DNA from: Telopea speciosissima
Taxonomy: Eukaryota > Streptophyta > Magnoliopsida > Proteales > Proteaceae
DNA length: 64,000 nucleotides
Reading direction: 5' to 3'
Assembly (NCBI RefSeq): GCF_018873765.1
Contig: NC_057917.1
Span: forward strand, 56,788,464-56,852,463
The notes beneath the pieces were generated by a model that searched no databases, was not told the origin of the DNA, and saw only the letters and a list, made by a program, of their open reading frames with translations. This document shows positions 18,921 to 45,160 of the stretch, in pieces. Position 1 is the first letter of the stretch; each line of letters begins with the position of its first letter. The translations under genes were made by a program, and so were the position numbers.

Positions 18921-19564
18921 TTTAACTTTTTAACATTTTTTTGTGTGCTTGTTTTAGACTGAAATTTGACCCATGAAATGACTTATAGGGTATGGGATCC
19001 TCTATAAAAGAATCCACCCTACCATGTAAAAAAAGTACATGATTCATTTAGAAGTCTAGTTAGGTCCAAACACTTCATGATACTTGTTGAATGGGCCAGT
19101 CCAGGGAGGGTTAGGATCATCCTCGATCCTTGGGCCCAAACATAATGGGATAATAATCCAATATTGGGTCTGGAGTCTGGACCGTGTTTGGACACGGACT
19201 TCACCATGTAGGGCAAGCAGACACAGGCCCTTATTAAATGGATGGGTTGGTTAAGGACGACAATTTGTCTCCTCAATGCATCAAACTGGGCTTATTCATG
19301 GCCTTCAAGAAATGCCACGCTTGAGCCTAGCCCGCTTGGACGTGGTGAGCTACAAACTTGGAAAGCATTGAAGGAGGTTAAAGGCCAAAGATGGTGTACC
19401 TCTTTTACCAGAACTATATATACATATATAGTTGAAGTCCGGGCATGCCGCAAGGGTGCCCAGCCTGTCTGCCTCTCCCTTGACCCCTTTCCCATGTGCC
19501 TGCCTCCCACAGGTGACGTGCCTATCCCTTCCCTTACATATACATATAGGGAAAAGAATATTGT

Positions 19565-19680
19565 TAGGCTGCATAGCGTATGCTAGTGCCTCCCTGTATC
19601 TATGTCTCTCCTCTCTCTTCTCTCCTATGAAATGACAGAGAAGAGAGATAGACAAAAGAAACACTAACATAAGCTACGGA
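19565..19680. repeat. Short hairpin repeat, also present at about 42198-42315
   Basis: TCTATGTCTCTCCTCTCTCT faces GAGAAGAGAGATAGACA around ATGAAATGACAG, with outer phrases CATAGCGTATGCTAGTG and CACTAACATAAGCTACG. It is MITE-like and lies at the right end of both duplication copies. Confidence 0.5.
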
Positions 19681-42700: not shown

Positions 42701-43040
42701 AATGTATAGAATCAGGGATCAATCAAGGCCAACCCAGCCCGATCAAGATCAATCAGGGCCGAACTGGGTTGGGAGAAGGAAAGGAGGAAAGGTAAAACAG
42801 TCATTTTATGTCAAGTTTAAATTCCACGTCATCACTTGACATTTACTTGCTAACGGACTTTTAATTTTGTATTTTTTTGAAAAATAAAGAAGATGTACAA
42901 GTACATTTTTTGACATTTCGGGTTTATAATTACTTTAGACAAAATACAATGGGTATACATGTAATTTTCCCTTATTATTATTTTGCTTTCATGACAAGTG
43001 GAACACTAATTGACTAGTTGTGCGGCAGAGGTTGGATGGA
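42330..43040. other. Intergenic, decayed TIR repeat and microsatellite
   Basis: 42340-42540 is rich in GATATCG/CGATATC and AATACGATAT phrases, similar in style to 52524-53294. A (TC)n run lies at 42662-42698. No gene is seen. Confidence 0.45.
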
Positions 43041-43049
43041 TTAAAATTT

Positions 43050-44424
43050 GGGTTAAATACACATACCCCTTAAAATGTATTCAATATTCCTCATGCCCTG
43101 CTAAGATTTTGATAATTTCACACGCACCCCTTGAAAATTGCACGTACATCTCTTATTTTCAACCTAAAGTCATTTAAGTCCATTCCATTAATATCAGGCA
43201 TTAGACGTTAAAAACTTTTTTTTATTGACCAAACTACCTTTTCTTCTAACGACCTTTATAATTTGAAAAGACCTTATTGCCCTGTTGCAGGTAAATTTTG
43301 CTTCTTATTCTTCTTCTCAACCGAACCAAGAAATCAAATTGCCAATGAAAAAAAATCAAAGGGAAATGAAGAAATCGAAGAAAGAAATTTCGGGAGAGAA
43401 CAAAATGAGAGAGAGAGAGAGAAAATAGACTATGAGAGCACAAAATAGGGAAGGGCAAAACCTCGAACCAGGTGAGTTTTCTCCTGTACCAATAGTTTGA
43501 TTGTCATGAACTTTCAGCCGAAGAATCCTACTCCAAAGCCCTCCTGAATGCAAACCCTAGTTGCTCCAACGTTCAACAACTGAGCGAAATATAAATCTCT
43601 AAATCAGACTTGGCGGTAAGGGCATGACCAGACCTGTTCTTCAGTGAAATATCTCACAGAAGACGATTTGGTTGGGGCAGGGAAACAAGGATTGGAATCA
43701 CATCTTATACCCAAGATGGGAAAAGAACAGGGAAGGGGTGAGGGAGAATCGAACCAGCGTGTGAAGGTTAGACAGTGCCGCTATAACAGGTCAACAGGGT
43801 TAAGTGTAGTAGGTTTCAGAAATTAAGGGGAAAAGAATGAAGGAATACGAAGATAGAAAAACCCACAAGAGGGGTGAGATACCGTAAAAAAAACACAACC
43901 TCAATTTGACCATTAGTAGCAGCGATATGAAGGGCAGAGAGCTTATCATAGATGGAGTTCTGATGCAATAGAGTTGGGCCTCTCTCCAAAAGAGCAACAA
44001 CGGTGTCCAGGTCCCCAATCTGAACAGCACGGAAGAGACCATGTTCGTAAATGGCTCTGCAACTCAGTCCCTGACCCATCTCCTTCCCCCTGCCCTCTTT
44101 CTCTCTCTCTCTCAAGTCGTTTTACATCCAACAGCGGGAACCGGAGAGGATAAATCGCCAGCGCCGCTGAGCTCCAAGTCTCGAAGCTCAAATCTCTATC
44201 TAGGGTTGAGGGAGTGTTCGCTCGAAAAAGGGAAAGGACAAAGGTTGTTTTGGGTATTTATCTTTTTCAATTTTTGTCGTTTTTATTTTTTAATTTAAGG
44301 GTATTTTGATAATTATACCCAGGGTATAACTGTACATTACATTCTTCAATTTTAGATTCGTTAGCATTTAACGCCTAATACGCAGAATATTGGGTCCATT
44401 TTAAGGAATATGTGTATTTAACCT
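43050..44424. mobile_element. Pack-MULE carrying an XBAT31-like exon
   Basis: A 1375-bp non-autonomous Mutator-like element. The ends are GGGTTAAATACACATACCCC and, in reverse, AGGTTAAATACACATATTCC. It is flanked by perfect 9-bp duplications, TTAAAATTT at 43041-43049 and 44425-44433. Inside, on the minus strand, is the first exon of an ankyrin-repeat E3 ligase (43900-44079) with its likely leader and intron start. No transposase is encoded, so movement needed a source elsewhere. Confidence 0.85.
43900..44079 (-). pseudogene. Captured first exon of an XB3/XBAT31-type ankyrin-RING E3 ligase
   Basis: Sixty codons start MGQGLSC and run EHGLFRAVQIGDLDTVVALL, then PTLLHQ and SALHIAATNGQIE, the N-terminal ankyrin repeats of XBAT31/XB3 ubiquitin ligases. 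The sequence stops matching at GAG followed by GTTGTG, a plausible donor, so the fragment seems to be exon 1 plus the start of intron 1. A GA-rich leader lies upstream (44080-44115). The RING domain and the later repeats are absent. Translation past the donor adds unrelated residues (VVFFLRYLTPL). It could be transcribed but cannot make the ligase. Confidence 0.8.
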
Positions 44425-44455
44425 TTAAAATTTTAGGTACTTGATTCTTGGGTCT

Positions 44456-45160
44456 ATGCTCTTTCATCTGCTGGCAGATTTGGATTGCAAGGAATGATCA
44501 TATATTTAAAAGAAGGAAATGGACTCTCCTATAGAGGTCAATATTGCTGCAACTAAAGCGTTTGGAAATTTTCACGAGGCAAACCGAAAAAGATTACCTC
44601 CTACTACACCAGTCCAAAGTCCCCCTCAAGCTAAATGGAGCAAACCTCCTCCAGGTTACTTTAAAGTCAACTGTGATACCTCTTTCCTTCAGCATAATGC
44701 CTCGGGAGGTCTAGGCTACATCATCAGGGACTCGCTTGGGAGAGTGATAGCAGCTGTATCTCAACCCAGCCAATTCACTTCCCCTCTTCAGGGTGAAGCT
44801 CTTGCGCCGCGCACTGTGCTTCTTGAAGCCATCTCGGAAACTCTCGATAGAGTTCATGTGGAATCAGATAACAGGGATCTCATTCTCTACTTGGAGAACC
44901 CAGGAAAGGCTCCACCCTCCACATTGAGCCCCATTTTAGAGGACATCAGATTCATCGCCTCTCAGTTTGAGACTTGTTTGTTTTTTCACATTTCAAGGGA
45001 TATCAACTCAGTAGCTAATTACCTTGCCCAGAAAGCCTCATCCCTAGCATGTAGGACGTCATGGTCTATTTCCACTGCCTGGCTTCGGGATCTATGTAAC
45101 TCAGATGCCTCGGCTTTTGCCGCTTCAATAAATTTTTAATCAACCACAAAAAAAAAAGAC
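44456..45160 (+). mobile_element. 5'-truncated LINE with target-site duplication
   Basis: Flanked by TCTTGGGTCT at 44446-44455 and 45161-45170, an exact 10-bp direct repeat. It starts inside ORF2 (CWQIWIARNDHIFKRRK, a zf-RVT tail), shifts frame by one base at about 44517, then has an intact RNase H ORF. It ends TTCAATAAATTTTTAATCAA and an A-run at 45148-45157. It lies just outside the Pack-MULE, so the LINE landed 31 bp from that element's end. Confidence 0.85.
44519..45139 (+). CDS. LINE-derived RNase H domain ORF (206 aa)
   Basis: An open frame with GYFKVNCDTSF (first Asp), GGLGYIIRDSLGRVIA, LQGEALAPR (Glu), VHVESDNRDL (Asp) and a closing SRDINSVANYLAQKAS. This is the plant-LINE type of RNase H. 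The intact frame in a truncated element suggests recent insertion; nothing shows it is expressed as a host gene. The ATG is inside the original ORF2 frame. Confidence 0.7.
   Translation: MDSPIEVNIAATKAFGNFHEANRKRLPPTTPVQSPPQAKWSKPPPGYFKVNCDTSFLQHNASGGLGYIIRDSLGRVIAAVSQPSQFTSPLQGEALAPRTVLLEAISETLDRVHVESDNRDLILYLENPGKAPPSTLSPILEDIRFIASQFETCLFFHISRDINSVANYLAQKASSLACRTSWSISTAWLRDLCNSDASAFAASINF

Follow-up and report, generated by a model that had tools for sequence, protein, structure and literature searches.

The window analysed here is a stretch of 64,000 nucleotides (C2:56788464-56852463), whose genes mark its source as a plant. It contains a 1375-bp element at 43050-44424, which is flanked directly by two identical 9-bp copies of TTAAAATTT. 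Its terminal inverted repeats (43051-43089 and 44385-44423) are 39 bp long, match at 34 of the 39 positions and are perfect over the outermost 15. A first-pass annotation of the window had described this perfect duplication, these matching ends and a 60-codon ankyrin exon on the minus strand (44079 down to 43900), all of which are confirmed. It had read them as a Pack-MULE, a non-autonomous Mutator-like element (MULE) with a captured gene fragment. Pack-MULEs are reportedly the subject of Jiang 2004 and Jiang 2011. The features of the locus are as follows.

43041-43049, no strand: left target-site duplication TTAAAATTT, from the window sequence.
43050-43457, plus strand: MULE left end, comprising the terminal inverted repeat and the left subterminal region; family matches 81-86%, right edge approximate.
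43458-43848, no strand: second captured segment; best outside match C9:5296646-5297446, partly common to the sister element L013.
43849-43899, minus strand: captured XB3 intron 1, 51 bp, from the alignment to the parent gene L009 and its intron border.
43900-44079, minus strand: captured XB3/XBAT31 exon 1, 60 codons from the ATG at 44079, with an open frame and an altered donor.
44080-44150, minus strand: captured XB3 5' leader, 71 bp, including ATGTAA, from the parent alignment.
44142-44150, minus strand: 9-bp stretch TCCTCTCCG at the XB3/MULE junction, found in the parent and in MULE relatives.
44151-44424, minus strand: MULE right end, with a subterminal region to 44380 and then the shortened inverted repeat 44385-44423, from comparison with relatives.
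44425-44433, no strand: right target-site duplication TTAAAATTT, from the window sequence.

The family ends and the two captured pieces account for the element, with approximate borders. The captured sequences are GC-rich (exon 48%, leader 55%, second segment 44%) relative to the MULE ends (34-35%) and the window (39%), as is characteristic of Pack-MULE acquisitions. Identical 9-mers at the spacing of the element occur at 2 of 62607 positions in the window. Among 1318 inverted pairs of 12-mers in the window (100-8000 bp apart, flank offset up to 3, homopolymers excluded), three have identical 9-mer flanks and all three are overlapping parts of the element's repeat.

The inverted repeats of MULEs are usually 100-500 bp long and their target-site duplications are 9-11 bp. 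A repeat of 39 bp is short for a MULE and counts against the assignment. A longer repeat within the element was considered and rejected, as the internal end-to-end match is no better than that of shuffled sequences (172 of 500 reached the score). An explanation for the shortness comes from relatives that have longer repeats. The left inverted repeat of the relatives is about 150-160 bp. Their right repeat is also about 150-160 bp (about 149 bp in L015) and runs directly into the sequence whose counterpart here begins at 44380. Because the longer repeat of the relatives abuts this sequence, the element appears to have lost about 110 bp and kept the outer 39 bp.

No empty site was found elsewhere in the assembly, as the sole match of the right flank is the flank itself. 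Of the 40 matches listed for the flank query, 38 are to other places in the genome (77-84% identity), and all of these fall in the left part of the query, 42781-42984, which is another dispersed repeat. An RNase H-like open frame (RVT_3, 7.7e-21) occupies 44510-45139, directly to the right of the element. Further to the left, 42108-42315 matches 19470-19678 at 88.5%.

The ends belong to a dispersed MULE family, which the first-pass annotation had proposed to search for. A whole-element search of the 823-Mb assembly listed 68 matches (40 of 1075 candidates were scored), and 32 of these cover the left 200-240 bp of the element at 81-86% identity. The subterminal piece 43299-43446 is common to the element and L019. 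Target-site duplications were surveyed at 18 loci, eight of which have both ends. Three of these eight have perfect 9-bp duplications, all different (TTAAAATTT, TTTATTTAA and TTATTTTAA), and two have a single mismatch, in both cases within a homopolymer run. In the remaining three no convincing duplication is visible (2, 4 and 5 mismatches), a point against the assignment. Scored in the same way, random pairs match exactly over 9 bp in 0.05% of cases.

The longest stop-to-stop frame overlapping the element is 108 aa. The element appears to be non-autonomous, with no internal transposase, as expected of a Pack-MULE. Mobilisation would have been in trans, by a MULE transposase. Matches to PF10551 (MULE transposase) number at least 150, scored of 827 candidates genome-wide. 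An autonomous partner was not found among them, as none of the 150 scored matches could be tied to the element's ends.

The region 43849-44150 derives from the 5' end of an XB3/XBAT31 gene. The search for a parent that the first-pass annotation proposed led to L009 at C2:2.618 Mb, on the same contig as the element and 54 Mb apart. The parent aligns with 280 of 317 columns identical, and its first intron ends in AG, 92 bp after exon 1. By frame inspection, exon 1 is followed by further ankyrin exons and then by a RING exon, which matches Pfam RING_XB3-XBAT31 (PF24921, 8.3e-23, 80.7 bits against a cut-off of 50). Of the four pieces of the gene that were scanned, one other passes an Ank cut-off (30.9 against 21.1); the exon-1 frame falls short of the Ank cut-offs, and no Pfam match was obtained for the exon-7 frame. 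Possessing both ankyrin repeats and the RING finger of the family, the gene is predicted to encode an XB3/XBAT31 E3 ligase. A PDB search returned ankyrin-type chains only and no XB3. L011, a paralogue, shows 81% identity across the part that matches. No family ends were detected in the 9.9-kb locus of the parent. A captured fragment whose parent lies elsewhere and is free of element ends is what a putative Pack-MULE should display.

The exon frame of the element scores 27.9 bits with Pfam Ank_4, above the cut-off of 22.7. It had been described as stopping at a splice donor. Its end does coincide with that of the parent's exon 1, but the donor itself has changed from GAG/GTTAGT in the parent to GAG/GTTGTG in the element. 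The frame from the XB3 start continues past the exon end into the junction and reaches 87 codons. The 51 bp of intron 1 indicate that the capture was from DNA and not from mRNA; retained intron sequence of this kind is a mark of the DNA-level capture seen in Pack-MULEs. That a MULE took the leader and exon 1 of an XB3/XBAT31 gene is borne out by the parent and by the family, but only 71 bp (44080-44150) of what was called the leader are XB3-derived. Residues 1-65 of the parent protein match the window, with nothing beyond exon 1, and the element has no RING finger. The first-pass annotation had named three findings that would speak against it: no parental gene, an intact locus without element ends, and continuation of the exon into the rest of the E3 gene nearby. 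Instead the parent exists, element ends flank the exon, and the window gives no match to later parts of the parent protein.

An ATG followed at once by a stop codon is present in all five XB3 leaders (the element, L009, L011, L012 and L015), 43-63 nt before the main ATG. It reads ATGTAA in four leaders, including the element (44122-44127, minus strand), and ATGTGA in the paralogue. A literature on boron and AUG-stop upstream frames exists.

The first-pass annotation described a single captured gene piece. The XB3 exon is indeed such a piece, but the account was incomplete. A second captured segment (43458-43848), which it missed, makes the element a chimera. The segment matches contig C9 at 93% over 326 columns and at 90% over 69 bp; in C9, about 410 bp absent from the element separate the two matching parts. 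Spliced capture was considered and rejected, as inspection of the 410 bp reveals no GT-AG borders on either strand. Since four other copies (L024-L027) also run across this point uninterrupted, the extra sequence is taken to be a later insertion in C9. This insertion (L010:4470-4878) has an A run at one end and looks like a retroposon. Sequence of the second segment occurs at 20 candidate places in the genome, including that of the element. One frame of this sequence (L033) was scanned against Pfam and gave no match.

A search with the XB3 part gave 11 matches from 10 candidates. These are the element, the two host genes, L012, L015 (two matches), and five short MULE right-end sequences with no XB3. 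L012 (C1:25.396 Mb; L012:3646-4429) is MULE-derived and no intact end was found in it. L015 (C10:28.760 Mb; L015:1808-3189) is about 1.38 kb long and has both ends, and its XB3 exon 1 is internally deleted. The MULE/XB3 border is identical in all three XB3-bearing copies. All three also have one derived base that is absent from both host genes. The common junction points to a single capture that was later amplified, and the capture is therefore older than the spread to three places. Neither this amplification nor the loss in the right inverted repeat had been noticed in the first-pass annotation.

The second fragment differs in each of the three XB3-bearing copies. In L012 it is the leader of a TRAPPC1-like gene, placed 3' of XB3 and, by inspection, in the same sense; the donors are 87-88% identical and the coding part of the TRAPPC1-like donor matches Sybindin (4.6e-16). 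In L015 it comprises the leader of a DUF212 gene together with the first-exon region, also in the same sense as XB3 by inspection, with donors 81% and 77% identical. Close to the second junction of the element itself, its two donors share a 10-bp stretch, but the element's sequence has diverged at this point and no clean border can be drawn, which counts against the reading.

The XB3/MULE border falls within the 9-bp stretch TCCTCTCCG, which is exact in the XB3 parent and in two of the five non-XB3 MULE relatives (L041 and L045). Randomly placed breakpoints gave a shared run of this length at a frequency of about 6e-5. The position of the border inside shared sequence is consistent with template switching. 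The other three relatives do not have an exact TCCTCTCCG, which counts against this mechanism.

The evidence argues strongly that the locus is a non-autonomous Mutator-like element, a Pack-MULE, which captured the 5' end of an XB3 gene at the DNA level, spread, inserted here and decayed. We propose the following history. An ancestral MULE would have copied the leader, exon 1 and the start of intron 1 of an XB3/XBAT31 gene from DNA to a position beside its right end; a template switch within a short stretch of common sequence during break repair is the most likely route. The ancestor with the XB3 piece would then have spread to at least three places. The lineage of the element would also have come to carry the segment that matches C9, part of which it has in common with a sister element. 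One copy would have inserted here with a 9-bp duplication. About 110 bp of the right inverted repeat would have been lost before or after the insertion, and the sequence would have drifted since.

One variant of this history stays within the same class. The element may be a recombinant, with its right half from the XB3 line (L012 and L015) and its left half from a line with the C9 segment only (L013). L013 shares the left end, the left junction and the segment up to 43737 and has no XB3, and L012 and L015 have the XB3 junction with other second pieces. Loss of an XB3 half from L013 would be the alternative, as the match of L013 stops inside the segment beside a small internal repeat. The recombinant origin is a possibility to be taken seriously, albeit tentatively. 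A further suggestion, which we consider improbable, is that the XB3 5' end (ATG-stop leader, start codon and first ankyrin region) is a portable promoter-leader cassette whose downstream partner is swapped. The partners would be the C9 segment here, the TRAPPC1-like leader in L012 and the start of the DUF212 gene in L015. If so, this MULE family would make fusion transcripts driven by the XB3 leader.

It is quite unlikely that the element is a working chimeric gene or regulator, either as a RING-less 87-aa XB3 N-terminus or as a source of RNA that silences the XB3 parent. The ATG and the 87-codon frame are intact, and the element and parent have 79 of 282 21-mers in common, with a longest identical run of 58 nt. 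Many Pack-MULEs of rice are transcribed, and Pack-MULEs may regulate their parental genes, according to the excerpts available (PMC8277862, PMC3310237). Exon 1 of the element and of the parent differ at 11 of 180 sites (dS 0.15, dN 0.037); with the paralogue as outgroup, seven changes fall on the element side and four on the parent side. When seven random substitutions were simulated under neutrality, the frame stayed open in 80% of cases, so the open frame is expected by chance and says little on age or function. The first-pass annotation had concluded from it that the capture is not ancient, an argument weakened by these simulations and by a capture that predates the spread to three places. 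On the element side, four of the seven changes alter the protein and five of the seven are C>T or G>A, the pattern expected of methylated DNA under silencing (both are small numbers). The donor site is altered and the right inverted repeat is damaged. Judged from its sequence, the element is probably a silent passenger with no current function, and small RNAs from it that act on the XB3 parent are possible. The suggestion in the first-pass annotation that an antisense or sense transcript could affect the parent is speculative.

Carriers of another superfamily fare worse. Helitrons also capture gene pieces, but they create no duplication; hAT elements create 8 bp and PIF/Harbinger elements 3 bp. 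The duplication of L013 is an 8-bp match, which taken alone would not separate a MULE from a hAT element. Given the inverted repeats and the 9-bp duplications, a Helitron or a transposon of another superfamily is very unlikely. A processed pseudogene of XB3 lying by chance between unrelated repeats would explain the non-XB3 sequence after exon 1, but it is refuted by the 51 bp of intron 1 and is scarcely credible with only the 5' end of the gene present and the same junction in two other MULE-derived copies.

Taken alone, the element is an ordinary passenger and its capture event is of a well-known kind. Its significance lies in the sister set, in which two copies have the same XB3 junction and one has the other capture. 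With the parent, the paralogue, the sister copies and the XB3-less relatives in one assembly, both the breakpoint sequence and the order in which the events took place are open to direct reading. This bears on how Pack-MULEs acquire DNA. The acquisition was called yet to be understood in the available part of a 2012 report (PMC3310237). Template switching is supported for animal Pack-TIRs and left open for plants in the excerpts of a 2021 report (PMC8277862). A literature search turned up no published XB3-bearing Pack-MULE; what it listed was a survey of Helitrons and, for Pack-MULEs in Proteaceae, a lotus genome paper.

The captured exon corresponds to the N-terminus and first ankyrin region of the XB3/XBAT31 ankyrin-RING E3 ligases, as outlined in the accessible parts of the sources (PMC3661601, PMC3596331). 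Unlike those genes, the element has neither the other exons nor the RING, and is no E3 ligase gene. For the XB3 family in N. benthamiana, the portion of the report available states that the RING is needed for cell death and that no single domain gave measurable death (PMC3661601). A RING-less fragment is therefore not expected to act as XB3.

The element resembles the Pack-MULEs of rice, tomato and other plants, so far as the excerpts describe them (PMC3310237, PMC4858842, PMC8277862), in being a non-autonomous MULE with a duplication in the range of 9-11 bp, a GC-rich gene piece, a parent elsewhere, several copies and two-donor chimeras. Chimeric MULE-derived genes with two donors are also known, in the part of the source available (PMC4858842). 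It differs from those Pack-MULEs in the inverted repeat, cut to 39 bp, and in its donor, an XB3 gene. The closest parallel is the PM-ZIBP family of tomato, in which, from the same partial source (PMC3310237), one host fragment is amplified in several elements. Tandem inverted repeats are described there in 13 of 14 copies and none are seen here. Unlike PM-ZIBP, each of the three XB3-bearing copies has a different second fragment.
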